Shown here: one piece after another, positions 1,444-62,313 of the stretch
Position numbering within the stretch: position 1 is the first letter of the stretch
How the letters are laid out: each line of letters begins with the position of its first letter
Assembly (NCBI RefSeq): GCF_000384235.1
Contig: NZ_KB913033.1
Span: 1,371,164-1,435,163, forward strand
Length of the DNA: 64,000 bases
Direction of reading: 5' to 3'
From: Hydrogenovibrio halophilus DSM 15072
GTDB taxonomy: Bacteria > Pseudomonadota > Gammaproteobacteria > Thiomicrospirales > Thiomicrospiraceae
Notes under the pieces: generated by a model
The model's database searches: none
What the model saw: only the letters and a program-made list of their open reading frames with translations
What the model was told of the DNA's origin: nothing
Program-made: the position numbers and the translations under genes

Positions 1444-1455
1444 ACCAGACCTGGT
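1444..1455. repeat. Degenerate copy of the ACCAGGCCTGGT palindrome
   Basis: ACCAGACCTGGT starts on the base after the gmhB stop codon. One central base differs from the consensus, and an A/T-rich right flank is kept. Confidence 0.6.
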
Positions 1456-1475
1456 CAATTTAGGAGTACAACATC

Positions 1476-2240
1476 ATGTCAAACATTGTGTTAAAAGGGC
1501 AATACAGCGTCTGGTTTGTGCGTTCGGTGTTCTACACCCTGGGCGAGGTGACCAGTATGGTGCTGTTTTCGGTGCTCGGGCAGGTGTTGCAGCCTTTTTC
1601 GGCGTCCATCAAGTACCGTTTTATCCATTACTGGGCCCGGTTTTGCGTGCTCTGGCTGCGCTGGACCTGCGGGGTGCATTATCGCGTGCATGGGCGTGAA
1701 CACATCGATCCGAAACAGGCTGGTCTGATCCTTGCTAGACACGAGTCTACCTGGGAAACCTTTGCGTTTCAGGCGATTTTTCCCCAGCAAACGTTTGTGC
1801 TGAAGCGGGAGCTGTTGAAAGTGCCTTTTTTTGGCTGGGGACTGTCGTTGCTGGAACCGATTGCGATCGATCGGGGATCGGGGCGTCAGGCAATCAAACA
1901 GGTGGTAGAGAAAGGCACGGACCGGCTGGATCGCGGCATCTGGGTGGTGGTGTTTCCGGAAGGCACCCGGATGCCGCCCGGCGAGGCCGGAAAGATCAAG
2001 CCCGGCGCGGCCATGCTGGCCACCAAGGCGCAGAAACCGGTGTATCTGGTGGGGCACAATGCCGGTCAGTGCTGGCCGAAAGGGCGGTTTGTCAAACGTC
2101 CCGGTGTGATTGATGTGTACATCAGTCCGCCGATGGACGTGACGGGCAAGTCCGTCAGTGAAATCAACCAATTAACCGAGGAGTGGCTTCACTCGCATTC
2201 TGCGATTGACCTGATCAGCGAAGAGGGTGAAGTGCCATGA
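1476..2240 (+). CDS. plsC: 1-acyl-sn-glycerol-3-phosphate acyltransferase
   Basis: This 254-residue acyltransferase transfers an acyl chain to lysophosphatidic acid to give phosphatidic acid at the inner membrane. The catalytic HX4D-type motif appears as ARHESTWET, with Glu in the acidic position, a variant common in proteobacterial PlsC. The acceptor-binding motif FPEGTR is at about residues 161-166 and KPGAAMLA follows. A hydrophobic N-terminal segment (about residues 12-45) would anchor it. The start is preceded by TAGGAG with good spacing. It lies 32 bases after gmhB and 6 bases before the MotA-like gene, so read-through transcription is possible. Confidence 0.92.
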   Translation: MSNIVLKGQYSVWFVRSVFYTLGEVTSMVLFSVLGQVLQPFSASIKYRFIHYWARFCVLWLRWTCGVHYRVHGREHIDPKQAGLILARHESTWETFAFQAIFPQQTFVLKRELLKVPFFGWGLSLLEPIAIDRGSGRQAIKQVVEKGTDRLDRGIWVVVFPEGTRMPPGEAGKIKPGAAMLATKAQKPVYLVGHNAGQCWPKGRFVKRPGVIDVYISPPMDVTGKSVSEINQLTEEWLHSHSAIDLISEEGEVP

Positions 2241-2246
2241 CGTAAT

Positions 2247-3089
2247 ATGAGCAAAATTGCAACACTTGTTGGTGTGCTTACAGGGTTACTGATCGTGGTG
2301 CTGAATATGTTTGATTTCAGTACGGGACAGTTCCTGAGCGCTTTTGTGAATCCACAAGGGTTGCTGGTGGTTCTGGGAGGAACATTGGCAGCAACGCTGA
2401 TCAATTACCCCCTGAATGACTTTCGGTGCGTCGGCAGTGGTTTGAAAAGGGTGTTTGTTGCTGAACCGCCTTCAGCCACGGACGCCATCACTGAAATCAA
2501 CGAACTGAGCTACATTGCATTTCGTCATGGAACTCTGCAGTTGGAGAAAGAGATTGAACTGGTTGAAGACGGTTTTCTGCAATTTGCCTTGAATGAATTA
2601 CTGGTTTATCGCGACTATGAGCAGCTGAAGCTGAGTCTTGACAATCACTTCAATACGATCCGACTGCGTCATCTCAACTGTCAGGAAATGTTTCACAATA
2701 TGGCCTCTTATGCGCCGGCTTTTGGCATGATGGGAACGGTGATGGGGCTGATTATCATGATGACGACGCAAGTTGCCACCGGCGAAGCGACAGCGGTCGG
2801 AGCCGATTCAGAGAATATGCTAAACAGCTTGCTTCAGGGGATGGGGCTGGCATTGGTGACGACCTTCTACGGTGTGTTGTTTGCCAATTTTGTTTTTGTG
2901 CCGGTGGCTGGAAAACTCAAGGTGCTGTCGGATGCGGAGGCATTGAAGAATGAAATACTCATGCACGGCGTGCTGGGAATACATAAAAACGTGTCCCCCG
3001 CCATGCTCAAAGAGACATTGACTGCCTTTGTCAATGAGCGCAATAAAGCCAGATTGGCGCAGGACCTGAATGGTTCGGTTGATAGCTGA
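2247..3089 (+). CDS. MotA/PomA-like ion-channel stator subunit
   Basis: This 280-residue protein resembles the MotA/PomA/ExbB proton or sodium channel family. Two hydrophobic segments lie near the N-terminus (residues 4-22 and 36-52). A cytoplasmic stretch follows, and then the signature third and fourth membrane segments YAPAFGMMGTVMGLI and MGLALVTTFYGVLFANFVF. The C-terminal GVLGIHKNVSPAMLKE is also MotA-like. It heads a three-gene cassette with two MotB-like genes, so it probably forms a stator-like complex that converts ion flow into movement or envelope work. No flagellar gene is adjacent, so flagellar function cannot be assumed. The unit appears less GC-rich than its neighbours by eye. 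Confidence 0.85.
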   Translation: MSKIATLVGVLTGLLIVVLNMFDFSTGQFLSAFVNPQGLLVVLGGTLAATLINYPLNDFRCVGSGLKRVFVAEPPSATDAITEINELSYIAFRHGTLQLEKEIELVEDGFLQFALNELLVYRDYEQLKLSLDNHFNTIRLRHLNCQEMFHNMASYAPAFGMMGTVMGLIIMMTTQVATGEATAVGADSENMLNSLLQGMGLALVTTFYGVLFANFVFVPVAGKLKVLSDAEALKNEILMHGVLGIHKNVSPAMLKETLTAFVNERNKARLAQDLNGSVDS

Positions 3090-3113
3090 ACCAATCAGGA
3101 CAGGAGTCTGTCA

Positions 3114-5678: not shown

Positions 5679-6359
5679 TTAGGGGCTTAACCTTGTTAAT
5701 GACCAGGCCTGGTTAAAATGGCCTCCCTGATCCTGGGTGCACTCATACCGAAAACGGTCGTGCAGACGGTTTTCACGTCCTTGCCAGAATTCGAATCGCT
5801 GCGGGCGCAGGTTGTAACCGCCCCAGTGTTCCGGGCAATCGATCTCCAGCCCCTGTTCGCTGTCGGCGATTTGAACGTTTTGTTCCAGGGTTCTGCGTCC
5901 CGGCAGGGGCTGGCTTTGCTCGGACACCAGTGCGACCAGCTGGCTGTCGCGCGGACGGGTCTGAAAGTAAGCCTGATTGGTGGCGGCATCGGTTTTTTCA
6001 ACCACGCCTTCAATCCGAATCTGGCGTTCCAGTTCCGGCCAGTAAAACAGCAGCGCGGCTTTGGGTTGCTGTGCCAGCTCGTGTCCTTTGTCGCTGTTGT
6101 AATGGGTGTAGAACACGAACCCTTTGGTGTCCATCGATTTGAGCAGCACGATGCGACTGTGCGGTTGGCCCTCGGCATCGACCGTGGCCAGGCTCATCGC
6201 GGTCGGATCTTTGACCCCTTCGCCGATGGCGGCTTGAAGCCATTCGTCAAACTGTTGGAAAGGGTCCAGGTGCAGTTGACCGCGTTCCAGCGAGCCGCGC
6301 TGATAGTCACGGCGTTCGTGATGAAAGTTACCGGATGGCGGCGTGTTGTCATCGTCCAT
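5679..6359 (-). CDS. pdxH: Pyridoxamine/pyridoxine 5'-phosphate oxidase
   Basis: This 226-residue FMN-dependent oxidase makes pyridoxal 5'-phosphate in the last step of vitamin B6 synthesis and salvage. Typical motifs are AMSLATVDAEGQPHSRIVLLK (about residues 53-73, FMN binding), FYTHYNSDKGHEL, ALLFYWPELERQIRIEG and the C-terminal WGGYNLRPQRFEFWQGRENRLHDR. The final residues NQAWSLTRL are encoded across a copy of the dispersed ACCAGGCCTGGT palindrome, where most homologues end in RLAP or similar. It lies upstream of ung on the minus strand. Confidence 0.96.
   Translation of the reverse strand: MDDDNTPPSGNFHHERRDYQRGSLERGQLHLDPFQQFDEWLQAAIGEGVKDPTAMSLATVDAEGQPHSRIVLLKSMDTKGFVFYTHYNSDKGHELAQQPKAALLFYWPELERQIRIEGVVEKTDAATNQAYFQTRPRDSQLVALVSEQSQPLPGRRTLEQNVQIADSEQGLEIDCPEHWGGYNLRPQRFEFWQGRENRLHDRFRYECTQDQGGHFNQAWSLTRLSP
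5702..5713. repeat. ACCAGGCCTGGT palindrome, inside pdxH
   Basis: An exact 12-bp copy near the 3' end of pdxH, read on the minus strand as Asn-Gln-Ala-Trp-Ser. TTAAAA flanks one side. Confidence 0.95.
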
Positions 6360-8477: not shown

Positions 8478-9044
8478 ATGGTTTCTCAAGGCGTATGGAT
8501 TACCAGTGGTTTGATTTTGCTGGGGTTCTGGGGGTTGAACCATTTGTCGAAAACCCTGATCAAAAAACTCAGTGATTTCAAACAGGTGCCTTTTGGGCGC
8601 TATCAGCAGATTTACAAATATTTTCGCGCCATTCTGACCATCCTGGCCGGGGTGGCGCTGATGCTGGTCTGGGGGGTGGATTACAAGGGCTTGGTCGTGG
8701 TGGCCACATCGGTGCTGGCCATGCTGGCGGTGGCGCTGGTGGCTCAGTGGTCGATTCTGAGCAATATCACGGCGGGCGTGGTGATCTTTTTTGCGTTTCC
8801 GATTCGGATTGGCGACCGCATGGAGGTCATTGACGGTGCCTCTTCCGTTCAGGGTGAAATCGTGGAAATCACCCTGTTTCATGTGATTCTGAAGGAAAGC
8901 AACGGGCAATGGTTGTCTTATCCCAATAACCTGGTGTTGCAGAAAGCGGTGCGCAAACTGCCCAGGGACGCAGAGGACAAAAAACCGGCGCTGGCCAGTC
9001 TGCAAAAACGATTGGCTCAGCGTGATTCCGCTGGCGTCAAATAA
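8478..9044 (+). CDS. Short MscS-family mechanosensitive channel protein
   Basis: This 188-residue membrane protein has three predicted membrane segments (about residues 6-24, 48-66 and 72-105). The last holds the pore-lining-like stretch VAQWSILSNITAGVVIFF. A short beta domain (IRIGDRMEVIDG...GEIVEITLFHVILKE...YPNNLVL) follows, as in the MscS family. It is much shorter than E. coli MscS (286 residues): the large C-terminal cage is absent and the chain ends about 60 residues after the beta domain. It may act in osmotic release. The start follows the parE stop by one base, which suggests translational coupling. Confidence 0.85.
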   Translation: MVSQGVWITSGLILLGFWGLNHLSKTLIKKLSDFKQVPFGRYQQIYKYFRAILTILAGVALMLVWGVDYKGLVVVATSVLAMLAVALVAQWSILSNITAGVVIFFAFPIRIGDRMEVIDGASSVQGEIVEITLFHVILKESNGQWLSYPNNLVLQKAVRKLPRDAEDKKPALASLQKRLAQRDSAGVK

Positions 9045-9047
9045 ATC

Positions 9048-9059
9048 ACCAGGCCTGGT
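9048..9059. repeat. ACCAGGCCTGGT palindrome between convergent genes
   Basis: An exact 12-bp copy in the 21-base gap between the convergent MscS-like and PilZ genes. The flanks are AAATC and AAAAAATC. Confidence 0.95.
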
Positions 9060-9065: not shown

Positions 9066-9437
9066 TCAAGTGGGGTTGCTGGCCTTGTAGCCGTAGCGTT
9101 CGCTCAAGTCGTGCAAACGCTGCTTGTAATCCAGAAAGTCCTGAAGGATGGCGCGGGTATGCTCGTCCTGTTCTTCAAGCTCCAGCGAGAGCAGAAAACC
9201 GTGTTCGGTGGCGTGGCGATGGCGCACATAGCCATGCAGGCACATCTGGTTGAATTCGCCCAGTGCCGGCAGTTCAAAACGCACTTCCAGACGGATGCCG
9301 ATGCCGGCATTTTTGGGGCTTTCAATCGCCAGCCCTTTGGTGGAAATTTCCTGCAGACGGCCTTCCACTTCCACCGTCTGGCCTTTGATGATGGCTTTGC
9401 GGTCGGTTTGCGTCGAGGGCGCATAAAACAGGGTCAT
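9066..9437 (-). CDS. PilZ-like domain protein (second of a tandem pair)
   Basis: This 123-residue soluble protein resembles PilZ domains: VEGRLQEISTKGLAIESP corresponds to the D/NxSxxG strand region, followed by LEVRFELPALGEFNQMCLHGYVRHRH. The N-terminal arginine motif RxxxR that binds cyclic di-GMP is not convincing (only TDRKAIIK), so it may be a PilZ fold that does not bind the nucleotide. The ATG at 9437 is chosen over a longer frame because that frame would overlap the upstream PilZ gene. The gap between the two PilZ genes is 10 bases, so they form an operon. The target is unknown. Confidence 0.7.
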   Translation of the reverse strand: MTLFYAPSTQTDRKAIIKGQTVEVEGRLQEISTKGLAIESPKNAGIGIRLEVRFELPALGEFNQMCLHGYVRHRHATEHGFLLSLELEEQDEHTRAILQDFLDYKQRLHDLSERYGYKASNPT

Positions 9438-10278: not shown

Positions 10279-10290
10279 ACCAGGCCTGGC
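10279..10290. repeat. Palindrome copy upstream of parC
   Basis: ACCAGGCCTGGC, with one edge mismatch. The flanks are AAAATTG and GAAATC. It lies 57 bases before the parC start. Confidence 0.9.
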
Positions 10291-10346: not shown

Positions 10347-12575
10347 GTGAGTCAGCAAACCATTAATTACGACGGCATTGAAACCCAATCGGTCGCGGCC
10401 TTTACCGAAAAGGCCTATCTCGACTATGCCATGTATGTGATTCTGGATCGGGCATTGCCCCACATCAGCGATGGACTCAAGCCGGTGCAGCGCCGGATTG
10501 TGTACGCCATGTCCGAACTGGGGCTGAAAGCGTCGGCCAAATACAAAAAATCGGCCCGAACCGTGGGCGATGTGCTGGGCAAATTTCACCCGCACGGCGA
10601 TTCGGCCTGTTACGAAGCCATGGTGCTGATGGCGCAATCCTTTTCCTTTCGTTACCCATTAGTGGACGGTCAGGGCAACTGGGGTTCGGTGGACGATCCC
10701 AAATCCTTTGCCGCGATGCGTTACACCGAAGCCAAGCTGTCAAAATTTAGTCAGCTTCTGTTGCAAGAAGCCGCTCAGGGCACGGTGGACTGGGTCCCCA
10801 ATTTTGACGGCACACTGGACGAACCGTCTGCCCTGCCTGCCAGAGTGCCGCACGTCCTGCTCAACGGCACGTCGGGCATCGCCGTGGGCATGGCCACCGA
10901 CATTCCGCCGCACAACCTGCGCGAAGTCGTGGACGCCTGTGTGGCGCTACTGGACAACCCCAAACTGACGGTGGCGGAGCTGTGCCAGTATCTGCCGGGG
11001 CCGGACTACCCCAATGATGCATTGATCATCACCCCCGAAGCTGAACGCCTGCGCATGTACGAGACCGGCAACGGTTCCATTCGCCAGCGGGCGCATTACC
11101 TGGTCGAAGACAAGGTCAATGTGGTGATCGACGCCTTGCCGTTTCAGGTCTCCAGCACCAAGGTACTGGAACAGATTGCCAGCCAGATGCGCGCCAAAAA
11201 ATTGCCGATGGTGGTGGATCTGCGGGATGAATCGGACCATGAAAACCCGATTCGACTGGTGCTGGAATTGCGTTCACGCCGGGTGGATGTGGCCGCGACC
11301 ATGGGGCATTTGTTTGCCACCACCGATCTGGAGCGCAGTTACCGGGTCAATCTGAACGTGATCGGGCTCAATGGGCGCCCCCAGGTCAAGGATTTGCAAA
11401 GCCTGCTTTCGGAATGGCTGCGTTACCGCATGGAAACGGTGCGCCGCCGCCTGCAGCACCGTCTGGACAAGGTACTGGACCGGTTGCATTTGCTGGAAGG
11501 GCTGTTGCTGGCGTTTCTGAACATTGACGAAGTCATCGCCATTATCCGCGAAGAAGACAAGCCCAAGCCCGAGCTGATCAGCCGTTTCGGCCTGAGCGAA
11601 CGCCAGGCCGAGGCGATTCTGGAATTGAAACTGCGCCAGCTGGCCAGGCTGGAAGAAATCAAGATCAAAGCCGAGCAGGACGATCTGGCCAAAGAACGCG
11701 ACCGATTGGAAAAAACGCTGGGCAGCCAGACACGGATGAAAACCCTGGTCAAAAAAGAACTCAAAGCCGATGCCGAGGAATATGGCGACGAACGACGCTC
11801 GCCGATTGAAACCGTGAACCCTGCCCAGGCGCTGAGTGAGCAGGATTTGCTGCCATCCGAGCCGGTGACGGTGATTCTGTCGGAAAACGGCTGGGTGCGT
11901 GCGGCCAAAGGCCACGACGTGGATGGCCGCCAACTGACCTACAAATCCGGCGACGCTTTCCGGGCGCAGGCGTCCGGTCAGAGCCGTCAGCAGGCGGTGT
12001 TTCTGGACAACCACGGACGCGCCTATTGCGTGGCCGCTCACTCTCTGCCCTCGGCACGCAGTCACGGCGAACCCCTGAGCGGGCGCTTGAATCCCGCCGC
12101 CGGTGCCCAGTTCCGTGAAGTGTTGCTGGGTGATCCCTCGCAGGAAGTCTTGTTGGCTTCCTCCGCCGGGTTTGGCTTTATTACCCAGCTAAGCAGTCTG
12201 ATTTCCAAAACCAAGGCCGGCAAAGCGGCGGTGACCTTGCCCAAGGGTGCCGCATTATTGCCCCCAGGCGAGGTGAAAGCCGATGACTGGATTGCGGTGG
12301 TGACCGACGAACCACGTCTGTTGGTGTTTGAGCGCTCGCAATTGCCGGTGCTGGCCAAAGGCAAAGGCAACAAACTGATTCAAATGCCCAAAGGCGTCTC
12401 TGTCCGCGCTGTGTTTGCCTTTGCCCCCGGGCAAAAACTGGAAATCATTGCCGGTGACTATGGCAAGGTGTTCGGCCCCACCGCTCTGGAAGCGGCCATG
12501 GGCCAGCGTGCCAGCCGTGGTGTGACCCTGCCTCGTACCCTCAAGAAAACCGATCTGATTCGACTCGCGCCATAA
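10347..12575 (+). CDS. parC: DNA topoisomerase IV subunit A
   Basis: This 742-residue breakage-reunion subunit of topoisomerase IV works with ParE to unlink replicated chromosomes. The catalytic Tyr is residue 126 in [10 protein letters not shown]. The quinolone-determining region [10 protein letters not shown] holds Ser86 and Glu90, matching the susceptible-type residues Ser80 and Glu84 of E. coli ParC. The coiled-coil gate (about residues 350-500) and a C-terminal beta-pinwheel follow, and the length is close to E. coli ParC (752), not GyrA. The start is a GTG with only weak ribosome-binding sequence, and [19 protein letters not shown] fits the family. Confidence 0.97.
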
Positions 12576-12681: not shown

Positions 12682-12693
12682 ACCAGGCCTGGT
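12682..12693. repeat. ACCAGGCCTGGT palindrome upstream of motA
   Basis: An exact copy flanked by TTTTTT on the left and TGTTT on the right, in the parC-motA gap. Confidence 0.95.
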
Positions 12694-15230: not shown

Positions 15231-16109
15231 TCAGGGTGCTTTCGTAGGGTCCATTGTCTGCGCCATCGTCACGCGCGGTTGCCCCCCCAAGTCCGTGTGG
15301 GTGATGGGAGGATGCCAGAGTCGCTCACTGAAATAGGATTGTACGGCTTCTGCCTGGTTATAGCCATGCTCGAGCAGCAGCCAGCCGCCTGGATTCAGAT
15401 GGGCTGGTGCCTGTTCAATGATCTGGCGCAGGTCGGCCAGTCCATGCTGTTGGGCCACCAGTGCGGTTTGCGGTTCAAAGCGCAGGTCACCCTGACTCAG
15501 ATGCGGGTCATCGGGTTCCACATAGGGCGGATTGGCGACCACGCAGTCAAATCGCAGACCGTTTACTGGCGCAAACCAGTTGCCCAAATGCCAGTGAATG
15601 TCGAGTCCGTGAGTACGGCCGTTTTGCCGGGCCACGGCCAGCGCCGCCTCGGAACGGTCCACGGCGTGGCAATCGGACTCGGGCAGCGCGTTTTTGAGCG
15701 CGCAGATGATCGCGCCACTGCCGGTACCCAGATCCAGAAATGACCAGGCCTGGTTGTTTTTGCTTTGTTCGCGCTGCAGCGTGAACGCGGTTTCTACCAA
15801 GAGTTCGGTGTCCGGGCGCGGAATCAAGGTGTCGGGGGTGACGCGCAATGTCAGCCCCCAGAATTCACGCTGCCCGAGGATGTAGGCCACGGGCTCGCCC
15901 TCACAGCGACGGTTGACCAGTTCTGCCAGTCGGTTGGCCTGCTCCGCGCTCAGGGGGCGTTCCGGCCAGGTAAACAGGGCGCTGCGCGGTTGCTCAATCA
16001 CCGCCATCAGCAGCAGATCGGCTTCCAGCGCCGCTTCTTCCAGCCCTTTCTCCTTCAGACGCTGGCGCGCTGTTTGGCGGGCCTGTTCGTAGGTGGGCGC
16101 TGGGGTCAC
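15231..16109 (-). CDS. prmC: Release-factor glutamine methyltransferase
   Basis: This 292-residue enzyme methylates the Gln of the GGQ motif in release factors 1 and 2. It starts at a GTG that overlaps the prfA stop by four bases, which fits translational coupling. The N-terminal helical domain is followed by the SAM-binding [20 protein letters not shown] and the catalytic NPPY in [15 protein letters not shown]. An in-frame copy of the dispersed palindrome encodes NQAWS just before FLDLGTG, in the inter-domain region. A longer frame extends upstream but lies entirely within prfA in another frame. Confidence 0.95.
15743..15754. repeat. ACCAGGCCTGGT palindrome, inside prmC
   Basis: An exact copy read on the minus strand as Asn-Gln-Ala-Trp-Ser. 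The flanks are GAAATG and TGTTTTTG. Confidence 0.95.
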
Positions 16110-19197: not shown

Positions 19198-21105
19198 GTG
19201 GGGTTAAAACGTTTATTGGTATTGGGCCTGATGGTCGGCGGAGTCAGTGGTTGTTCGGCTTTGTCGTCTGCTGACCGGGATGCGGCTCTGAAACGTTCGG
19301 CCGAATTTGTCCCCGGTCCCGAGTTGAGGGACCCGCAGACATCGTCGTCAACGCAATCGTCGCAGGCCGACACAACCGGCTCCGAAGAACGCCTGATGAA
19401 ACCGCCCTCTGCCACCGAACTCGATCCACAGGTGATGTACGAGGTGTTGCTGGGCGAGATGCTGGCCTTGAAAGGGGCTCAGAATGATGCGTTCCGTATT
19501 TTGTTTCCTCTGGCCGAGCAGACCCGTGACCCAGGCCTGGCAGAAAGAGCCTTTCAGCTTTCTATGGCCACTTTCGATCTCGAAGCCATTCAGGCCGCGA
19601 CCGATCTGTGGCGTGAGATTTCTCCCGAATCTTCCGTCGCCTGGAAGGCGTCCTATCTGATGGCGGTACGAGACGGGGATCAGTCCAAAGCCAGAGAGCA
19701 TTGGGACCGTTATCGGGCCGTGTCGGAACAGACCCTGGATCAGGATCTGGTGCAAGCGGCCATGCGCCTGCGTCAAACGGCTCCCGCCGAGTCGGGACTG
19801 GCGTTCATGCAGTGGCTGTTGCAAACGCACCCGGAAAAGGCCACGGTACAATATGGGATGGGGTTGGTCCTGCATGCCTATCAGCAATACTCTCCCGCCA
19901 TCGACTATCTCAATAAGGCCATCGGTGGTTTTGAGGTGATGCTCTCGGATGTGACACCTGCCTGGCCGGCCTCGCTGTCACAGCAGTTTAGAAACGAGAT
20001 GGCGCCTGAGGGGTTTGCCCAGCCCTGGCTTTTGCAAGTTTACCGTCAGGCCCATCTGCTGATGGCCGAGTCCTATCTGGGCGTGGATCGGCCTCAGTCC
20101 GGTCTGGACGCACTGGCCGATTATGTGGAAGCCTATCCCGATGACTGGGCCATGCAGGAACGTTATGCCCGTCTGGAGGTCAAGGCCGGGTTTTATCATC
20201 AGGCCGAACAACGCTATCAGGCCGTGGTGAACCACCGGCCTGATGCGCATCAGACCCGTCTAGCGCTGGCACTGCTGAGACTGGAGCAGGGCGATTATGA
20301 GGGCGCGATTGAACCTTTGGAACAGCTGAAAGCCACGCGGAGCTTTGAATCTGCCGCCCGTTATTATCTGGGGCGCATTGCCCAGCAGCAGGGCGAGGAG
20401 GAACAGGCGCGTGCCTATTATGAATCGGTGGTTGACAGCGAATACGGGTTGGATGCCCGCCTGCATCTGGCCGAGCTGACCTATGACCAGCTCGGACTGG
20501 AAGCGACGCTGGAACAGTTGTCGGCGTTGTCGCCTGAGTCGGTGGAAGACAAGGTCCGAGTGCTTCGTGCCAGAGCGTTGTTTTATCGCAAGGCCGGTCA
20601 GTTGGATCAGGCGATCGACCAGTATCAAGACGCGATTGCTCTGACTCCGGACAATGTCGGCCTGTATCTGAAGCAGGCGATGCTGCAGTTTGAAGCCGAG
20701 CGGTTCGAGGCATACGAGGCCACACTCAAGCAAGCGCTGGATCTGGCACCGGCGCATGCGGAGCTGTTGAATGCGCTGGGGTATTTTTATGTGGAGCAGA
20801 ATCGGGAGTTGGAGCAGGCGACCGAGTTGCTGGACAAGGCGGTGGCACTGGCACCCGGTCAATTTCATATTCTCGACAGTCGCGGCTGGCTGGCCTACAA
20901 AAAAGGCGAACTGAAGGACGCCGAGCGCTATCTGAGAAAAGCGTTGAGCATGCAGATGGATCCGGAAGTGCTGGCGCATCTGATTGAGGTGCTCTGGGTC
21001 GATGGTCAGAAGCGTGAGGCGCGCGCCTTGTGGCAGAAACACAGATCGTCGTTTCCCGATCACGAACCTTTGCAGACGCTGATCCAGCGTTTGCAGTCAT
21101 CCTGA
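19198..21105 (+). CDS. TPR-repeat lipoprotein
   Basis: This 635-residue protein has a lipoprotein signal (LLVLGLMVGGVSGC, lipidated Cys19), so it is probably anchored to the outer membrane facing the periplasm. A low-complexity linker of about 60 residues follows, and the remainder is tetratricopeptide-like helical repeats. They are clearest at about residues 380-410 and 450-620, with GYFYVEQNRELEQATELLDKA and GWLAYKKGELKDAERYLRKA as examples. The start is GTG after AAAAGG. In Pseudomonas a similar TPR protein sits between hemA and lolB, and the same position here supports orthology. Its molecular role is not established; TPRs suggest protein scaffolding. Confidence 0.85.
   Translation: MGLKRLLVLGLMVGGVSGCSALSSADRDAALKRSAEFVPGPELRDPQTSSSTQSSQADTTGSEERLMKPPSATELDPQVMYEVLLGEMLALKGAQNDAFRILFPLAEQTRDPGLAERAFQLSMATFDLEAIQAATDLWREISPESSVAWKASYLMAVRDGDQSKAREHWDRYRAVSEQTLDQDLVQAAMRLRQTAPAESGLAFMQWLLQTHPEKATVQYGMGLVLHAYQQYSPAIDYLNKAIGGFEVMLSDVTPAWPASLSQQFRNEMAPEGFAQPWLLQVYRQAHLLMAESYLGVDRPQSGLDALADYVEAYPDDWAMQERYARLEVKAGFYHQAEQRYQAVVNHRPDAHQTRLALALLRLEQGDYEGAIEPLEQLKATRSFESAARYYLGRIAQQQGEEEQARAYYESVVDSEYGLDARLHLAELTYDQLGLEATLEQLSALSPESVEDKVRVLRARALFYRKAGQLDQAIDQYQDAIALTPDNVGLYLKQAMLQFEAERFEAYEATLKQALDLAPAHAELLNALGYFYVEQNRELEQATELLDKAVALAPGQFHILDSRGWLAYKKGELKDAERYLRKALSMQMDPEVLAHLIEVLWVDGQKREARALWQKHRSSFPDHEPLQTLIQRLQSS
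19531..19540. repeat. Core-only CCAGGCCTGG palindrome inside the TPR gene
   Basis: The 10-base core is intact, but the outer bases are C on both sides, so it reads CCCAGGCCTGGC. It encodes Pro-Gly-Leu in frame. The flanks are not A/T-rich, so it may be a chance or decayed copy. Confidence 0.6.
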
Positions 21106-22390: not shown

Positions 22391-22402
22391 ACCAGGCCTG
22401 GT
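22391..22402. repeat. ACCAGGCCTGGT palindrome between prs and rplY
   Basis: An exact copy 23 bases after the prs stop. The flanks are AAAACC and CAATTTTG. Confidence 0.95.
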
Positions 22403-24909: not shown

Positions 24910-24921
24910 ACCAGGCCTGGT
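24910..24921. repeat. ACCAGGCCTGGT palindrome after ychF
   Basis: An exact copy 18 bases after the ychF stop and 28 bases upstream of the tRNA-Met -35 element. The flanks are AATCTT and GAAAATC. Confidence 0.95.
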
Positions 24922-29614: not shown

Positions 29615-29638
29615 TTTTTCACCAGGCCTGGTGAAAAA
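29615..29638. repeat. 24-base perfect palindrome with ACCAGGCCTGGT core
   Basis: The core at 29621-29632 extends symmetrically by TTTTTC on the left and GAAAAA on the right. This is the longest perfect copy in the window and shows that the A/T-rich flanks belong to the motif. It lies six bases before the 170-base element. Confidence 0.97.
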
Positions 29639-37502: not shown

Positions 37503-37514
37503 ACCAGGCCTGGT
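37503..37514. repeat. ACCAGGCCTGGT palindrome touching the tatC stop codon
   Basis: An exact copy in the 34-base gap between tatC and the DUF255 gene. Its last base is the third base of the tatC TAA read on the minus strand. The flanks are ATTTG and TATTTTTTG. Confidence 0.95.
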
Positions 37515-38512
37515 TATTTTTTGGGCGACTCGTCATCATCGGGTTTGTCTGAGTCCCCGCGCTGGCGTTTGGACTGATCTTTTTCCAGTGCATCGAATTC
37601 GGCATCAATCTTTTCAAAGGCATCGTCCCATTCACTGTCGTCCCAGTCATCGTCAAGCTGATCGGCATAGCGGTCATCGAATTCCGGTTCTGTTTTGGTA
37701 TTGGCCTGTTGGTCTGAGGTTGGTTGTGACCGATCGTCGTTCCCGTCGGTTTCGTCCTCATCCTCGTTTTTACGACGGGCCTTGACGATCATGCCGCCGA
37801 TGATCACACCGGCTTCATACAGCAGCCAGACCGGTATGGCGAGCAGTGTCTGTGAAACAATGTCCGGCGGGGTCAGCAGCATGCCCAGCACAAACGCTGC
37901 GACCACAATGTAGGGGCGGGCATGCGCCATTTTTTCAGGGGAGGTCATGCCGGTGATGATCAGCAGCACCACCACAATCGGCACTTCAAACGCCAGGCCA
38001 AAGGCGAAGAACATTTTGATGACAAAGTCCAGATACAGGGCAATGTCGGTGGCCACAGTGACGCCTTCCGGGGCGGCGGTGGAAAGGAAACCGAACACCA
38101 GCGGGAAGACCACATAGTAGGCAAACAGCCCACCGGCATAAAACAGAAAGGAGCTGAAAAACAGCAAAGGCCCGATCAGACGTTTTTCGTGTTGATACAG
38201 GGCGGGAGCAATGAACCACCAGATCTGATACAGCAGATACGGCATGGCCAGGTAAATGGCCAGCACCAGACTCAATTTAAAGGGCGTCAGAAACGGGGAA
38301 GCCACGCCCGTGGCAATCATGCTGGTGCCTTCGGGCAAAAAGCGCGACAAGGGTTCGGAAATGTAAATATAGAGGTCGTTCGCAAAAGGGAACAGCGCAA
38401 TAAACAGCACCAGTATGGCCAGTACGGCTTTGGTCACGGCATTGCGCAGGTCCAGCAGGTGGTGGACCAGTGACATTTCCTTGTCTTGGGGTGGCAGGGC
38501 GCCGTCGCTCAT
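37514..38512 (-). CDS. tatC: Sec-independent protein translocase TatC with long acidic tail
   Basis: This 332-residue protein is the twin-arginine signal receptor of the Tat export system. HHLLDLRNAVTKA, the six membrane helices and the conserved FAFGLAFEVPIVVVLLI, FVLGMLLTPPDIVSQ and IPVWLLYE are clear. After the last helix (about residue 245) a tail of roughly 85 residues, dominated by Asp and Glu, extends beyond the usual TatC end (E. coli 258 residues). It overlaps tatB by four bases. Tat substrates include redox proteins that need folding before export. Confidence 0.95.
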   Translation of the reverse strand: MSDGALPPQDKEMSLVHHLLDLRNAVTKAVLAILVLFIALFPFANDLYIYISEPLSRFLPEGTSMIATGVASPFLTPFKLSLVLAIYLAMPYLLYQIWWFIAPALYQHEKRLIGPLLFFSSFLFYAGGLFAYYVVFPLVFGFLSTAAPEGVTVATDIALYLDFVIKMFFAFGLAFEVPIVVVLLIITGMTSPEKMAHARPYIVVAAFVLGMLLTPPDIVSQTLLAIPVWLLYEAGVIIGGMIVKARRKNEDEDETDGNDDRSQPTSDQQANTKTEPEFDDRYADQLDDDWDDSEWDDAFEKIDAEFDALEKDQSKRQRGDSDKPDDDESPKK

Positions 38513-43121: not shown

Positions 43122-43133
43122 GCCAGGCCTGGT
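43122..43133. repeat. Palindrome copy upstream of hisB
   Basis: GCCAGGCCTGGT, one edge mismatch, flanked by ATTTTTTT and GGAAAAGG. It lies 107 bases before hisB. Confidence 0.9.
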
Positions 43134-49599: not shown

Positions 49600-52142
49600 T
49601 GAGCGGTGACAGCTGCTTTCATTGTGGCCAGCCGGCGCTCAAAGCCAGCCAGGTCACGCATCCGATAAACGGTCAGTCTCAGGTTTTTTGCTGTCATGGC
49701 TGCGCCGGAGTCTGTGAAGCCATTCATGAGGCGGGGATGGACGCCTTTTACCGGCGTACGCCCGAAGGCGAGCTGCTTTCTCCGCCGCCGCCGCCAACGC
49801 CCAATGCCGATTTTTACGACTACGACGAAGTACAAAGTCAATTTGTTCCATCACTGGACAGCCGCCGCAGCATCACACTGATGTCCGAGGCGATTCATTG
49901 CGCTGCCTGCATCTGGTTGATCGAGCACACTCTGGCCAAGCTTGACGGCGTGCTGATGGCCAAAGTCAATTTCACCAACAAACAAATCAAACTGCGCTGG
50001 GACAATGACCGCGTTCAATTGTCCGAGATCATTCACGCTCTGAACCGCATCGGCTACGATGCCACGCCTTATGACGCCTCGGCCAGCGAAGAGGCCTACC
50101 GCAAAGCCAATCGCGATTTGCTTTACCGACTGGGGTTCGCTGGTTTTGCGATGATGAATGTGATGTGGTTCGCGGTGGCTCTGTACGCGGGTGCCGATGA
50201 AGACCCCGCTTTCCGTCATTATTTTCATTGGGTGCAGTGGGCCATCGCCACCGTGACGTTGATTTATTCCGGCAAGCCTTTCTGGCACGGGGCTTGGAAA
50301 TCTCTCAAGGCCCGCAGTGTGGGCATGGACGTGTCCATCACTCTGGGGATATTGACCACCTATTTTTATTCGTTCTGGGTCACGGTCGATCCCTCCCATT
50401 CCGGGGACGTGTATTTTGACACCATGATCGACTTCATCTTCCTGTTGCTGATCGGTCGTTATCTGGAAGCCATCTCCAAAAACAAAGCGATGGATTCCAC
50501 CAAGCGTTTGATGGATTTGCAGCCGAAAGTGGCCCGTTGTGTGGATCCGGAAACGTCCGAAGTCTCTGTTGTCCCGGTCAGAAAACTCAAGCCCGGAGAC
50601 CAGGTCATGGTCAAACCCGGCGACCAGATCCCAGTGGATGGCAAGGTGCTGCGGGGCACCGGCAATGTCAATGAATCCATGCTCAGCGGCGAATCCCGCG
50701 AAATCTGGAAGCAGACTGGCATGGATGTGTCTGCCGGGACCCTGAATCTGGACGGGACTCTGACCGTTGAAGTCAGCGCGATCCTTCAGGGCACCATGCT
50801 GGGACGCATTGTCAGCATGGTCGAAGATGCGCAAGGTGCCAAGGCCCCGATACAATGCACGGCTGAAAAGATCATGCCCTGGTTTGTCACGGTGGTCATT
50901 GCTCTGGCCGTGCTCAGTTTTTCCTATTGGATTGTCAATGCGGATCTGGAAACGGCCATGATCGCGGCGACCGCCGTCCTGATTATTACCTGCCCCTGTG
51001 CCTTCGGGCTGGCCACCCCCATGGCCACGGCAGTCGCATCCGGCGTTTCGGCTCAGAACGGGATTCTGATTAAAAACGGTGCGGTGCTGGAAGTGCTGCA
51101 ACAGATGAACCACTTTGTGTTTGACAAAACCGGCACCCTGACCCAGGGCAGAATGCAGTTGCAGGAAACGGTCTGGGTGGATCATATTCAAAACGATGAA
51201 GCCGAAAAAGCCCACCTGATCGAAGCCATTGTCCGGATTGAATTTCATTCGGAGCATTCATTGGGCAAGGCGATTGTGGCGGCTTTGCAGGATCAATACC
51301 CGGCGTTGAAAAACCAGCGTTTGACCTTGGAGCATTTTCAGGCGCACCCCGGCCGAGGTGTGGAAGCCGAATGGCAGGGCCAGCATTATCTGATCGGCAC
51401 GCGCACCTGGCTGAGTCAGTATGGGGTGGATTTTCCACCAGGCCTGGTCAAAATGGAAGCCGAACGGGGAAAAACCGGGCAGACCAGCGTTTGGGTGGTG
51501 CGCAATCAGCAGGTTCAGGCGGTGTTGTTTTTGCAGGACCCGTTGCGTGACGATGCGCGTGCGCTGATTGACCGCTTGAAAGCACAGGGCAAACAGGTCA
51601 CGCTGCTCAGTGGTGACCGTCAGGCCGTGGCCGAGTCGGTGGCTTCAGAGCTGGGCGGGATGGAGGTCATTGCCGAAGTGCTGCCGGACCAAAAGCACGA
51701 TGTGATTGCCCGATTGCAGCAAACACAATCGGTGGTCATGGTGGGTGACGGTGTGAACGACGCCCCGGCACTGGCCCGTGCCCGGGTCAGTGTGGCCCTG
51801 GGGTCGGGCACAGACGTGTCCATGGATTGCGCCGACATCATTTTGCTGAACAATGAATTGCTTTCGGTGGACACCGCTCTGGCGCTGTCACAGCGTACCC
51901 TCAAAACCATCAAGGAAAACATCGTCAGTTCCATTGTGTACAATGTGACGTTTGTGCCTTTGGCCATGGCGGCCATGCTGACACCGTTGGTGGCGGCCAT
52001 TACCATGCCGTTGAGCAGTCTGGTGGTCATTCTCAATGCCGCACGCATTCGCCGTTTTTTTCATCCCAAAGCCGTCGCCAGACGCGAGGCCCAGCTGGCC
52101 AAAGCATCAAAGCCGGCACCGAATAAAGCCGATCAAAGTTAG
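49599..52142 (+). CDS. ccoI: P1B-type copper-transporting ATPase CcoI
   Basis: This 847-residue pump supplies copper for cbb3 oxidase assembly. The N-terminus has a metal-binding Cys-rich domain (CFHCG and CCHGCAGVC), then an HMA domain with CAAC (residues 101-104). The membrane site is CPC in IITCPCAFGLATPM, phosphorylation motif DKTGTLTQG, TGES-type LSGES, and GDGVNDAPALARARVSVALG. It is in ccoGHIS order, overlapping ccoH and 9 bases before ccoS. A palindrome copy encodes PPGLV in the nucleotide-binding domain. Confidence 0.95.
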   Translation: MSGDSCFHCGQPALKASQVTHPINGQSQVFCCHGCAGVCEAIHEAGMDAFYRRTPEGELLSPPPPPTPNADFYDYDEVQSQFVPSLDSRRSITLMSEAIHCAACIWLIEHTLAKLDGVLMAKVNFTNKQIKLRWDNDRVQLSEIIHALNRIGYDATPYDASASEEAYRKANRDLLYRLGFAGFAMMNVMWFAVALYAGADEDPAFRHYFHWVQWAIATVTLIYSGKPFWHGAWKSLKARSVGMDVSITLGILTTYFYSFWVTVDPSHSGDVYFDTMIDFIFLLLIGRYLEAISKNKAMDSTKRLMDLQPKVARCVDPETSEVSVVPVRKLKPGDQVMVKPGDQIPVDGKVLRGTGNVNESMLSGESREIWKQTGMDVSAGTLNLDGTLTVEVSAILQGTMLGRIVSMVEDAQGAKAPIQCTAEKIMPWFVTVVIALAVLSFSYWIVNADLETAMIAATAVLIITCPCAFGLATPMATAVASGVSAQNGILIKNGAVLEVLQQMNHFVFDKTGTLTQGRMQLQETVWVDHIQNDEAEKAHLIEAIVRIEFHSEHSLGKAIVAALQDQYPALKNQRLTLEHFQAHPGRGVEAEWQGQHYLIGTRTWLSQYGVDFPPGLVKMEAERGKTGQTSVWVVRNQQVQAVLFLQDPLRDDARALIDRLKAQGKQVTLLSGDRQAVAESVASELGGMEVIAEVLPDQKHDVIARLQQTQSVVMVGDGVNDAPALARARVSVALGSGTDVSMDCADIILLNNELLSVDTALALSQRTLKTIKENIVSSIVYNVTFVPLAMAAMLTPLVAAITMPLSSLVVILNAARIRRFFHPKAVARREAQLAKASKPAPNKADQS
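51437..51448. repeat. ACCAGGCCTGGT palindrome inside ccoI
   Basis: An exact copy read as Pro-Pro-Gly-Leu-Val, a different frame from the QAW copies. The flanks are TTTTCC and CAAAATGG. Confidence 0.95.
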
Positions 52143-52493: not shown

Positions 52494-58401
<5,908 letters not shown>

Positions 58402-59237: not shown

Positions 59238-59331
59238 GATTTTTGTCTCTGTTTAGGTTGTCTGGTTATCATGAAGTTTTTTTAAGGTGTTTTCAATGGT
59301 GCTTTTAAAGGTCTTTTCGAGCAGGTAAAAA

Positions 59332-59349
59332 ATCACCAGGCCTGGTGAT
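59332..59349. repeat. 18-base palindrome with ACCAGGCCTGGT core, upstream of dut
   Basis: The core at 59335-59346 is extended by ATC on the left and GAT on the right, all symmetric. It lies between the divergent antitoxin and dut genes, 49 bases before the dut start. Confidence 0.95.
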
Positions 59350-59397
59350 GGGTTGCGGTAAAATGCGTGGTGTTTTTTTAATGGGAGCGGCTTTGTT

Positions 59398-59859
59398 ATG
59401 AGTTTACAGGTTGAATACAAAATTCTGGATGCCCGTTTGGGCAATGAGATTCCGTTGCCGCATTACGGCACCAAAGGGTCGGCGGGACTGGATTTGCGTG
59501 CTTGTATTGATGCGCCGATGACGATTGAACCGGGGCAGGCGGAACTGATCCCGACCGGCATGGCGATTCATCTGGACGATCCGGGGCTGGCGGCGATGTT
59601 GTTGCCGCGTTCCGGGCTGGGCCACAAGCACGGGCTGGTGCTGGGCAATCTGGTCGGGTTGATTGACTCGGATTATCAGGGGCCGCTGATGGTGTCCTGC
59701 TGGAACCGTTCCGACAGCGCCTACACCATTGACGTGGGTGAGCGCATTGCCCAGATGGTGATTGTGCCGGTGATGCAGCCGGTGTTTACTCAGGTGGACG
59801 AGTTTGGCGAAGCCACCGAGCGCGGTGCGGGCGGTTTTGGCCACACCGGACAGGCATAA
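59398..59859 (+). CDS. dut: dUTP diphosphatase
   Basis: This 153-residue trimeric enzyme hydrolyses dUTP, keeping uracil out of DNA; ung in the same window removes what escapes. Motifs in order are [46 protein letters not shown] and the C-terminal [11 protein letters not shown]. dut followed by algC and argB matches the Pseudomonas order, though dfp (coaBC) is not upstream. Confidence 0.97.
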
Positions 59860-59899
59860 TGGTCATCCGGCTGTCATCAAGCCGGGCTACACTGAACGG

Positions 59900-61333
59900 A
59901 TGTCAGCATTGATCGATCCCAGTATTTTTCGCACCTACGACATTCGCGGCGTGGTGGACCAGACCCTGACCGAAACCGCTGTTTCGGCCATTGCCCGGGC
60001 GTTTGCCCAGTCTTTGCGCGAGTCGGGCGAAACCCATGTGGTGGTGGGGCGAGACGGGCGTTTGTCCGGCCCGCGCTTTGCCCGATTGATGATCGAAGGC
60101 CTTTCCGGTGAAGGCCTGGCGGTGATTGACCTGGGCGAAGTGACCACGTCCATGGTGTATTTTGCGCGTGAGATCCTGCCCAACGTCCGGTCCTGCATCG
60201 CGATCACCGGCTCGCACAACCCGCCGGACTACAACGGCATCAAGTTGGTGGCCGGTGGGGTCACGCTTTATGGTGAGCACATTCAGGCCATTCGCCAGCG
60301 CATTGAAACCAACGCACAAACCGCTGACTCCACACAAATCACCAGGCCTGGTCAAAAAGCCATGACGCCCGGCCCGGTGCAGTCGCTGGACATTTTCCCG
60401 GCTTACTGCCAGCGCATTGTCGATGACGTGGCGCTGAACCGGCCTTTGAAAGTGGTGTTGGATGCGGGCAATGGCGTGGCCGGGCGCTTTGCGCCTGTGG
60501 TGTTTCGGGCATTGGGCTGTGAGGTCGTGGAACTGTTTTGTGACGTGGACGGGCGCTTTCCCAATCATCACCCCGATCCGGCCAAGGCCGCGAATCTGGC
60601 CGATCTGGCCAGGGCCGTGGTGGCGCAAAAGGCCGATCTGGGTCTGGCGTTTGATGGCGATGGTGACCGTTGTGGCGTGGTCGATGACACCGGGCAATCG
60701 CTTTACGCCGACCGCCAGCTGATGTTGTACGCCCGCGATGTGCTGACGCGCCAGCCGGGTGCAGAAATTTTATACGACATCAAGTGTTCGGCTCTGGTGG
60801 CGCGCGACATCGAAGCCCACGGCGGCCGGGCCACCATGTGGAAAACCGGGCACTCCTATATGAAAGCGAAAATGAAAGCCAGTGGCGCGGCGCTGGGCGG
60901 CGAGGTGTCGGGGCACATGTTTTTCAAGGAGCGCTGGTACGGGTTTGACGACGGCATCTACACCGCCGCGCGCATGGCTGAGATTGTGGCCGCTCAGAAG
61001 CGGACGGCGGCCGAGTTGTTTGCCACCTTGCCCGATGCCTGCAATACCCCGGAAATCGATCTGCCGTTTGCCGAAGGCGAGCATTATAGCTTTATGGACA
61101 AGGTTCGCGAGACCGCCGGGCGCAGCGACTGGCTGAGCGGTGCCAGCCTGTTTACGCTCGATGGCATTCGCGCCGACTTTGACGACGGCTGGGGGCTGAT
61201 CCGGCCGTCCAACACCGCGCCTTTGATCACCCTGCGCTTTGAAGGCGACACCCCGCAGGCGCTGGCGCGCATTCAAGCCCGTTTTCGCGGCCTGATCCAG
61301 CAGGTGGATCCCGCCTTGATGCTGCCTTTCTGA
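59900..61333 (+). CDS. algC: Phosphomannomutase/phosphoglucomutase
   Basis: This 477-residue enzyme interconverts hexose 1- and 6-phosphates for LPS and polysaccharide precursors. Motifs are FRTYDIRGVVDQ, the phosphoserine loop ITGSHNPPDYNGIK, metal loop FDGDGDRCGVVD, sugar loop GGEVSGHMFFKER and the phosphate-binding RPSNTAPLITLRFE. The ATG at 59900 is chosen because the longer frame overlaps dut. A palindrome copy encodes ITRPGQK in the linker after the first domain. Confidence 0.95.
   Translation: MSALIDPSIFRTYDIRGVVDQTLTETAVSAIARAFAQSLRESGETHVVVGRDGRLSGPRFARLMIEGLSGEGLAVIDLGEVTTSMVYFAREILPNVRSCIAITGSHNPPDYNGIKLVAGGVTLYGEHIQAIRQRIETNAQTADSTQITRPGQKAMTPGPVQSLDIFPAYCQRIVDDVALNRPLKVVLDAGNGVAGRFAPVVFRALGCEVVELFCDVDGRFPNHHPDPAKAANLADLARAVVAQKADLGLAFDGDGDRCGVVDDTGQSLYADRQLMLYARDVLTRQPGAEILYDIKCSALVARDIEAHGGRATMWKTGHSYMKAKMKASGAALGGEVSGHMFFKERWYGFDDGIYTAARMAEIVAAQKRTAAELFATLPDACNTPEIDLPFAEGEHYSFMDKVRETAGRSDWLSGASLFTLDGIRADFDDGWGLIRPSNTAPLITLRFEGDTPQALARIQARFRGLIQQVDPALMLPF
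60341..60352. repeat. ACCAGGCCTGGT palindrome inside algC
   Basis: An exact copy read as Thr-Arg-Pro-Gly-Gln, a third reading frame, in a linker. The flanks are ACAAATC and CAAAAAGCC. Confidence 0.95.
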
Positions 61334-61439
61334 CTTTTCATGGTCCGGCGATCCGGCAAAACGTCCCAATGCCTTCACTGCGGTTGTGTCAGGATGCGTC
61401 AATGATATAATTGTCAAAAAAACGTGAGCACAAGCAACC

Positions 61440-62258
61440 ATGGAACAACAACTCCGCGCCGCCCTGAACGCCATCAAAGGCGTCAAAATCCCCGATCTGC
61501 CCAAGGAAATCCTGGAACTCGACGAAGCACTTTCCAGCAAATTCCCCAACAATCAGGTCATTACCGACATCATTAAAAGCAATACCAAACTGTCCGGCGA
61601 AGTTCTGCGCATTGTCAATTCGCCGGTAATCAAGGTAAAAGCGGAAGTCAAAACCATTCGCGATGCGGTGGATGCTCTGGGGCACAACAATCTGAAAAAT
61701 CTGGTGCTGGCCTCGGCCATGAAAAATATTTTCAACAAGCGCGAGGTCAATGAAATCATTGAGCACTCTAAAGATGTGGCCTACTGCTGTGCCGAACTCT
61801 CTGATTATGTGCATGGTGTAAGCCGTGATCAGGCCTATCTGACCGGGTTGTTTCACAATGCCGGTGCATTGCTGCTGGCAACCAAAGACCCGGAGCATTA
61901 TGTAAAACTTTTCAGCCAGTTGAACACACATCCCGTGACGGCCATGGAAAAGGAATTGAAAGCGTACGGTGCCAATCACACCTTTATTGGCATTTTGATG
62001 GGGCAGAAGTGGAAGTTGAATGTGAACGTGCTCAATACCATCATGACTCATCACAATCCCATTGACAGCATTCGAAACGAACAGGTCAGAACCCTGGTGG
62101 CCATGATCAAAGTCGCCAATGTGGTTGTCAACGAAATCTCTTTTGGCAGTTTTATGGCGCAGGAAGCGAAAGACGAGCTGAAAGAGGGCCGGGAGGAACT
62201 GATGCTTGATTCGGACCAGATCAATGATGTCCGCAATGCACTGGCCACCTTCGGTTGA
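61440..62258 (+). CDS. HDOD-domain signalling protein
   Basis: This 272-residue soluble protein is a stand-alone HDOD domain: LPKEILELDEALSSKFPNNQVITDIIKSNTKLSGEVLRIVNSP, AVDALGHNNLKNLVLASAM and YLTGLFHNAGALLLA. The HD catalytic residues of true HD-GYP phosphodiesterases are replaced, as is usual for HDOD, so it is more likely a regulatory adaptor. It sits between algC and argB, which are adjacent in Pseudomonas. Confidence 0.88.
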   Translation: MEQQLRAALNAIKGVKIPDLPKEILELDEALSSKFPNNQVITDIIKSNTKLSGEVLRIVNSPVIKVKAEVKTIRDAVDALGHNNLKNLVLASAMKNIFNKREVNEIIEHSKDVAYCCAELSDYVHGVSRDQAYLTGLFHNAGALLLATKDPEHYVKLFSQLNTHPVTAMEKELKAYGANHTFIGILMGQKWKLNVNVLNTIMTHHNPIDSIRNEQVRTLVAMIKVANVVVNEISFGSFMAQEAKDELKEGREELMLDSDQINDVRNALATFG

Positions 62259-62291
62259 GCGGGGGGCTCGCAACCAGTCAGTCAGACGCGG

Positions 62292-62313
62292 TTTTCACCA
62301 GGCCTGGTGAAAA
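62292..62313. repeat. 22-base palindrome with ACCAGGCCTGGT core
   Basis: The core at 62297-62308 is extended symmetrically by TTTTC and GAAAA. It lies between the HDOD gene and the microprotein gene on the minus strand. Confidence 0.97.

Follow-up and report, generated by a model that had tools for sequence, protein, structure and literature searches.

A short palindromic word recurs throughout a stretch of 64,000 nucleotides (nt) of the Hydrogenovibrio halophilus DSM 15072 genome (hereafter the window, which comprises positions 1,371,164–1,435,163 of a single contig of 2,356,686 bp), and the question it raises is what function such a word may serve. The palindrome, ACCAGGCCTGGT, is 12 bp in length and contains the core CCAGGCCTGG. 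The analyses described below show that it is a genuine signal extending through the genome; it was found in one bacterial family, whose members spell it in co-varying ways, and would work most like an uptake sequence. Its membership in either of the described groups of such sequences, the uptake signal sequences (USS) or the DNA uptake sequences (DUS), is not claimed, since a role in uptake is something that we infer, the palindromic form is atypical, and no member of the known receptor families was detected.

Abundance, repeat unit and placement of the palindrome

The core is present exactly 18 times in the window, whereas dinucleotide shuffles of this sequence contained a mean of 0.14 and a maximum of 2 copies, and none of 100 shuffles reached 18. 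At 14 of the 18 cores the complete 12-mer ACCAGGCCTGGT is exact. An initial examination of the window from its letters alone (the sequence-only reading) had reported 18 intact cores, 14 copies exact over 12 bases and one degenerate copy at 1444, all of which were located; the coordinates that it assigned to the cores are correct as starts of the 12-mer (the core begins one base later), except for 19531, which is the start of the core itself. The whole contig contains 515 exact 12-mers and 599 cores, and a control in which the pattern was reversed without complementing it gave no 12-mers and one core. In the 864 kb that were read directly, consisting of genome positions 1–800,000 and the window, 173 exact 12-mers are present, whereas an order-3 Markov model predicts 0.44, and hence local composition does not account for the palindrome; one-mismatch copies numbered 45 versus 9.5 expected. 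Chance or composition as the source of the copies is ruled out by the shuffles and the Markov expectation, and a patch limited to the window by the contig-wide counts. The proposal of a genome-wide signal, against which the sequence-only reading had itself set three possible outcomes (no contig-wide excess, an excess explained by composition, or a local patch), has thus stood, as none of the three was observed.

The consensus of the 173 exact copies is wwwt.ACCAGGCCTGGT.awww, with n at each dot, which defines a repeat unit of about 22 bp where the 12-bp palindrome has an A/T tract on each side. These copies are rich in A/T from −5 to −2 and from +2 to +5, in agreement with the A/T-rich flanks noted earlier, and the A+T fraction at +2 to +6 is 0.815 compared with 0.468 after isolated CCTGG (1083 sites). 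Beyond this unit the copies show no homology, the identity of their flanks being 0.256 versus 0.250 for random sequence, and none of 159 exact copies has a neighbour closer than 150 bp.

The copies are concentrated between genes. Of the 173, 86–91 are fully intergenic versus 17.7–23.7 expected, 75–80 are within genes and 7 are on gene boundaries. These counts are based upon a simple and crude gene caller, with a non-coding share of about 10% to 21% depending upon its settings, and the conclusion was the same at all settings tried; an earlier version of the caller gave 96 intergenic, 70 genic and 7 boundary copies. In the window, 10 of the 18 cores lie outside called genes, as had been estimated from the sequence. 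The spaces between convergent genes are favoured, with 28–32 of 86–90 intergenic copies versus 13–21% of the intergenic bases, and the copies inside genes fall predominantly in two reading frames (40 and 28 copies) with only two in the third.

Over the first 800 kb every 50-kb bin contains 6–13 copies and no gradient in density is visible, and the window, at 1.37 Mb, contains 14. This distribution, with hundreds of copies dispersed across 0–800 kb and the window, disposes of the suggestion that the palindrome is a parS- or matS-like site, for which few copies near the origin or terminus are expected. The largest core-free gap (763,530–789,149) resembles by eye a ribosomal-protein/rpo/tuf/fusA cluster, and the second (401,763–420,515) contains an IS3-type transposase, PhoX, a P450-domain protein and a two-partner-secretion pair.

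Related words in other genomes of the family

The nearest named relatives of the ParC protein are from Hydrogenovibrio sp. JE_KL2 (76%), Hydrogenovibrio UBA650 (74%), Thiomicrorhabdus NP51 (72%) and Sulfurivirga (68%), which identifies the family concerned as that of Hydrogenovibrio and Thiomicrorhabdus. At least 90 cores are present in 27 of 62 genomes from this family, viz. 7 of 11 from the genus of the window, 10 of 32 from genus g3, all nine from g6 and the single genome from g4; none of the nine genomes from g2, g5 and g7 reached this number (0–5 copies each). In 21 genomes from outside the family 0–1 exact 12-mers each were found, and 76 ParC loci from other bacteria (1.53 Mb) contained six cores and no 12-mer. 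Among the genomes compared, the palindrome was thus found only in this one gammaproteobacterial family.

The comparison with sister species that had been proposed for this palindrome shows that relatives have different but related words, some of them non-palindromic. In eight other genomes of the family, k-mer counting on sequence stretches detected related dispersed words in place of the palindrome, and with it they make up six dialects (D1–D6) that are nearly mutually exclusive. D1 is the palindrome ACCAGGCCTGGT, the spelling of the H. halophilus genome (G000). D2, ACCGGCCGGT, is present in 1025 copies in genome G031 and in 0–15 copies in the other 61. D3 is CCCCAACCTGGYAGATTTT; its inner word CCAACCTGGYAG, which was counted in 55 genomes (34 in the family), whereas the core and the other dialect words were counted in 62, occurs 382 times in G001 and 338 times in G010, both from the genus of the window, and at most 6 times in the other 53 of the 55. 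D4 is CCCCAGCCTGGCAGATTTT, and the word CCAGCCTGGYAG is found 328 times in G004 and at most 4 times in the other 61 genomes. D5 is a AACAGGCCTGTT-like word of G076, G021 and G025, in which 24–37 D1 cores are retained, and D6 is the non-palindromic ACCCGGCCTGTTgAgTTT of G029; these two dialects are known from 100-kb samples of the four genomes rather than from whole-genome counts. By consensus D1, D2 and D5 are palindromic, whereas D3, D4 and D6 are not and have kept the A/T tract on one side only. All six have in common a half-site (CCTG or CCGG) that leads into A/T-rich positions.

Five genomes from the genus of the window (G002, G003, G006, G008 and G009) are rich in cores, but only 24–40% of these belong to exact 12-mers (162 exact among 673 cores in G002). 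The form GCCCAGGCCTGGGC accounts for three of five copies in 20 kb of G002, and copies of this type possibly constitute a further dialect. In the first 100 kb of contig 1 of G004, 10-mers such as AGACCTAGCC occur 26–28 times, perhaps as part of a CRISPR (clustered regularly interspaced short palindromic repeats) array. The ParC locus of Thiomicrorhabdus (22 kb) contains four cores and that of JE_KL2 one full D3 word; neither the core nor the D3 word was found at the loci of UBA650 (18 kb) and Sulfurivirga (14 kb).

The positions of these words in sister genomes are also informative. Two collinear chains, of 11 and 6 sites, link the D3 sites of G001 with those of G010, the step from each site to the next differing by no more than 100 bp between the two genomes, and inside both of the intervals so defined D4 sites of G004 are present at matching spacings, in chains of 5 and 5 sites versus G001 and of 5, 5 and 4 versus G010. 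Random controls (200 runs for each comparison) gave no chain longer than 4, a length that 6–10 of the runs attained, and the observed chain of 4 sites is therefore no evidence. The input of this test was the listed plus-strand sites (58 of 199 for G001, 72 of 186 for G010 and 64 of 183 for G004), with orthology taken from collinear spacing and not from alignment; when the tolerance was relaxed, the totals were not above random. Additionally, a D3 site is located just before the comEC match in G001, in G010 and in G004, where it is one of only six D3 words. On this positional evidence, the three sister genomes show one spelling or the other at collinear positions. Of the D2 sites of G031, several can be aligned gap-free with relatives that lack the motif, which is compatible with an origin by substitution, and others (uncounted) align with gaps. 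Between genera most sites are unshared at aligned positions and a few are shared, e.g. a D4 site of G004 with a D1 site of G063 (these also uncounted). For G000 and its congeners the available stretches overlapped too little for alignment of sites.

Some members of the family appear to have no such word. None was detected in 79–120 kb samples of five relatives (G012, G018, G061, G062 and G079). As a positive control of the k-mer counting, the parS-like word GTTTCACGTGAA was recovered in 4–6 copies from the first 100–120 kb of contig 1 of G018, G061, G062 and G025. Of the 27 motif-free genomes of the family, these five were sampled at 79–120 kb, five others (G007, G011, G016, G057 and G060) at about 10–20 kb and 17 through word counts, and at this depth of sampling further dialects may remain. 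In a literature search, which covered few subscription journals, the exact 12-mer was not found, shorter words gave among the matches listed only papers that by title are on other subjects, and nothing among the matches listed linked the Hydrogenovibrio/Thiomicrorhabdus family to uptake sequences.

A candidate role in DNA uptake and the alternatives to it

Among the candidates put forward by the sequence-only reading, an uptake sequence provides the best fit. We consider it probable that these words form a third, largely palindromic signal system of the DNA-uptake type, in which the palindrome of H. halophilus would be the local dialect of a family-wide sequence; in the portions of the searched literature that deal with uptake sequences, these are described for the Neisseriaceae and Pasteurellaceae only. 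The features shared with USS and DUS are the excess of copies, the excess of perfect copies (except in D5), the dialects, the A/T-rich flanks, the enrichment between genes, the even spacing, the inverted pairs and the presence of ComEC. Perfect copies outnumber one-mismatch copies by 173:45 in G000, by 66:21 in other D1 genomes (16 stretches, leaving out G002 with 5 cores and 0 exact copies in 20 kb, G082 with none in 16 kb and the named locus L011 with 3 exact copies), by 36:8 for D2, 13:4 and 15:2 for D3, 10:3 for D4 and 17:6 for D6. Passages in PMC1626085 state as a puzzle that perfect USS and DUS copies outnumber those with one mismatch, and describe a strong consensus, A/T-rich USS flanks, no significant orientation bias and clade-specific spellings. 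The strand totals in the D3 and D4 genomes (plus/minus: 199/183 in G001, 186/152 in G010 and 183/145 in G004) have a modest plus lean in all three.

Close inverted pairs of sites in terminator orientation number 16 in G001, 11 in G010 and 3 in G004 versus 0.3–0.5 expected, with none in a reversed control. Only one arrangement was sought, in which a hairpin would precede the T tract of the consensus. The pairs include about 32 of 382, 22 of 338 and 6 of 328 sites in the three genomes, respectively, these fractions being approximate since the paired and total counts use slightly different words. Inverted pairs of uptake sequences at terminators are described in passages of PMC1852404, and those of PMC3630211 describe DUS dialects in Neisseriaceae together with inverted pairs tied to terminators.

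ComEC was detected above the cut-off in 34 of the 35 motif-positive genomes (at least 90 copies of D1–D4, or D5/D6 by sampling), and the exception is G066, a draft genome (82% complete) in which a ComEC fragment lies at a contig edge. The motif is present in 34 of 52 ComEC-positive versus 1 of 10 ComEC-negative genomes (Fisher p 0.0016, uncorrected for relatedness). In G029 ComEC is seen as two separate matches about 37 kb apart; in the g2 genomes G011, G017, G024 and G028 only its N-terminal half is matched, below the cut-off; and in G079, where the motif is absent in 120 kb, the match is weak and at the domain level.

If these words are uptake signals, the core would be bound by a DNA receptor that is part of the natural-transformation machinery at the cell surface, the A/T tracts could help the duplex to kink or melt, and marked fragments would enter in preference to others. 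As DNA of the same species is taken up and recombined over and over, the mark would then be enriched and purified, and a shift in receptor specificity could convert the whole set of sites in place, through point mutation and recombination, giving rise to dialects. Palindromic dialects would be readable in both directions, whereas the non-palindromic ones would keep one half-site (CCTG and then the A/T tract), and in two or three genomes with the latter some inverted pairs may have taken the shape of terminators.

A number of observations weigh against a role in uptake. The motif was not detected in 18 of the 52 ComEC-positive genomes. ComP_DUS (PF16732) was above the cut-off in none of the 62 family genomes, with one sub-threshold match in G018, and GspH/FimT (PF12019) was found in no motif-positive genome and in only three of the 62 (G071, G012 and G018), none with a detected motif; these results identify no receptor, and both profiles may miss diverged pilins. 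No uptake experiment on this family was found in the literature. In D5 perfect copies are fewer than those with one mismatch (8:12 for the 12-mer and 15:18 for the 10-mer), and D1, D2 and D5 differ in their palindromic form from the USS and DUS, with which the non-palindromic D3, D4 and D6 agree; PMC1939737 describes the uptake sequences known so far as non-palindromic. The density in G000, about one per 4 kb, compares with about one per kb for USS/DUS in a passage of PMC1626085. Over larger distances few sites are common at aligned positions. Lastly, the copies are spaced more evenly than random, with a coefficient of variation (CV) of 0.747 for 159 exact sites in 800 kb (none of 5000 simulations was as low) and a dispersion index of 0.45 in 25-kb bins (0.4% of simulations were as low). 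This evenness also fits a chromosome-organising site; on uptake sequences, portions of PMC1939737 both cite Karlin for significant even spacing, with about 10% inverted repeats, and argue that the spacing is less even than compaction sites would need. In G000, the region 136,005–147,188 contains prepilin-like genes, one with 12 cysteines, whose match is only to the generic N-methylation motif; a weak Y1-transposase-like gene near them itself contains the motif core.

The strongest of the alternatives, although an improbable one, is that the words are sites for an intracellular chromosome-organising or nucleoid protein that needs an even spread of sites, and that the dialects track changes in this protein, which we presume would work in the manner of Noc, SlmA or MatP. 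The palindromic core suits a dimeric cytoplasmic protein, and the even spacing, the intergenic preference and the switch of spelling at collinear positions are all in accordance with this possibility. However, three of the dialects are non-palindromic with a one-sided A/T tract, and no density gradient is visible along 0–800 kb. In five of the six dialects perfect copies greatly exceed one-mismatch copies, unlike the sites of ordinary regulatory proteins as a passage of PMC1626085 characterizes them. The samples from five relatives without any such word indicate that the function would be dispensable within the family.

A considerably less probable explanation is a HIP1-like (highly iterated palindrome) element, made and kept by a DNA methyltransferase together with methyl-directed repair. 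Its attraction is that the D1 word is palindromic, GC-rich and dispersed, and that, as parts of PMC4390886 describe, some cyanobacteria have alternate HIPs instead of HIP1, each of them matched by a methyltransferase. However, G000 has no match to either PF00145 (C5 methylase) or PF01555 (N4/N6 methylase), which leaves the proposed identification as a C5 or PF01555-type methylase target without support, and the same two profiles are unmatched in 16 of the 35 motif-positive genomes (G000 and 15 others), other adenine methylase families not having been searched. G031, whose core ACCGGCCGGT has A-T pairs only at its outer ends, is one of these 16. No positive association of the motif with either methylase family was seen (p 0.07, in the negative direction, and p 0.80), and a non-palindromic 19-bp dialect is unlikely as a methylase site.

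It is slightly more doubtful still that the words are transcription terminators or other RNA elements. The enrichment between genes, especially convergent ones, and the inverted pairs in D3 and D4 genomes could be understood in this manner, but 75–80 of the 173 copies are inside called genes, a lone D1 copy could form a loop of no more than GGCC, and its consensus tracts, T in front and A behind, are in the wrong order for a terminator. Moreover, few of the sites are in close pairs and terminators need no fixed word.

A Chi-like recombination hotspot word, for which the species-specific spelling and a density near one per 4–5 kb would speak, is even less likely. The strand totals of D3 and D4 given above are near equal (as whole-genome totals, not by replichore), and the palindromic D1, D2 and D5 have no polarity. 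To our knowledge, A/T tracts are no part of known Chi sites. A mobile repeat of the REP (repetitive extragenic palindromic) or MITE (miniature inverted-repeat transposable element) type, spread by a transposase such as the weak, sub-cut-off Y1-transposase-like gene at genome positions 143482–144552, is very improbable, being contradicted by the lack of flank homology, the absence of close neighbours and the D2 sites of G031 that align gap-free to motif-free relatives.

Returning to uptake signals as the preferred reading, a more far-reaching form of it can be envisaged, for which we regard the case as evenly balanced. In this form, the family would represent a third independent lineage of DNA-uptake self-recognition and the first that is based on a palindrome, its receptor would lie outside the ComP and FimT families, and its dialects would have been switched genome-wide at standing sites (with one base changed, at collinear positions of sister genomes), with the result that a single genus has both palindromic and directional forms of the signal. 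The tag, present in hundreds of copies in sulfur-oxidising marine bacteria and spelled in a species-specific manner, looks like a self-recognition mark for the DNA of relatives. If this is correct, a third family, in which six or more spellings, palindromic and directional, occur and collinear sites are found in two of them, would make the origin, spread and change of specificity of self-marks directly testable in free-living autotrophs. Should the function be other than uptake, the words would still constitute a genome-wide signal whose spellings co-vary and for which no reader has been described.

Individual copies in the window and comparison with known systems

The exact copies between called genes in the window are those at 9048–9059, which is flanked by convergent genes (8478–9044, plus; 9066–9437, minus), at 12682–12693 downstream of parC (10347–12575), at 22391–22402, at 24910–24921 between a called gene and tRNA-Met (24992), at 29621–29632, where the symmetry is extended (TTTTTC...GAAAAA), and at 59335–59346 and 62297–62308. 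The copy at 37503–37514 is also exact and its core lies between called genes, with the last base of the 12-mer touching the next gene (37514–38512, minus). Six exact copies are located within genes: at 5702–5713 in the 3′ end of a pyridoxamine-phosphate-oxidase-like gene (5679–6359, minus), at 15743–15754 in a prmC-like gene (minus), at 32169–32180 in an aminotransferase gene (31567–32793, minus), at 36354–36365 in a thioredoxin-domain (DUF255) gene (35680–37479, minus), at 51437–51448 in a heavy-metal P-type ATPase gene (49737–52142, plus), and at 60341–60352 in a phosphoglucomutase/phosphomannomutase-like gene (59900–61333, plus). Of the intact cores with altered outer bases, that at 10279–10290 (..GGC) is intergenic and upstream of parC, that at 43122–43133 (GCC..) is intergenic, that at 30241–30252 (..GGC) is inside a gene with an S-adenosylmethionine (SAM)-methyltransferase domain (29840–30757, minus), and that at 19530–19541, in which both outer bases are altered (CCCAGGCCTGGC), is inside a gene for a tetratricopeptide repeat (TPR) protein. 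The degenerate copy ACCAGACCTGGT at 1444–1455 has one mismatch and lies between called genes.

Compared with the systems already known, parS and matS are likewise palindromic chromosomal sites, but here hundreds of copies extend across 0–800 kb and the window, compared with the handful of parS-like words that stand separately in the 100–120 kb samples of the four relatives named above. The cyanobacterial HIP1 and alternate HIPs, as portrayed in parts of PMC4390886, are similar in being highly repeated GC-rich palindromes that are replaced by other palindromes in some relatives, and the present words differ from them in the lack of a PF00145 or PF01555 match in G000, in their non-palindromic dialects and in a longer unit with A/T tracts. 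The DUS of Neisseriaceae resemble them in having several dialects per family and inverted pairs linked to terminators (passages of PMC3630211); the word is different, the A/T tracts have no counterpart in Neisseria, where no flanking motifs are indicated in the relevant passages of PMC1626085, and ComP_DUS is missing above the cut-off from all 62 family genomes. With the USS of Pasteurellaceae the words share an exact dispersed sequence, A/T tracts beside the core, the excess of perfect over one-mismatch copies and inverted pairs at terminators, as seen from passages of PMC1626085 and PMC1852404, and the two clade-specific spellings of the USS are paralleled by the dialects of this family. They differ from the USS in the word itself, in having a palindromic core with two-sided A/T tracts in most species, in being sparser (about one per 4 kb, versus one per kb) and in the lack of PF12019 in motif-positive genomes, and their role in uptake is a putative one.

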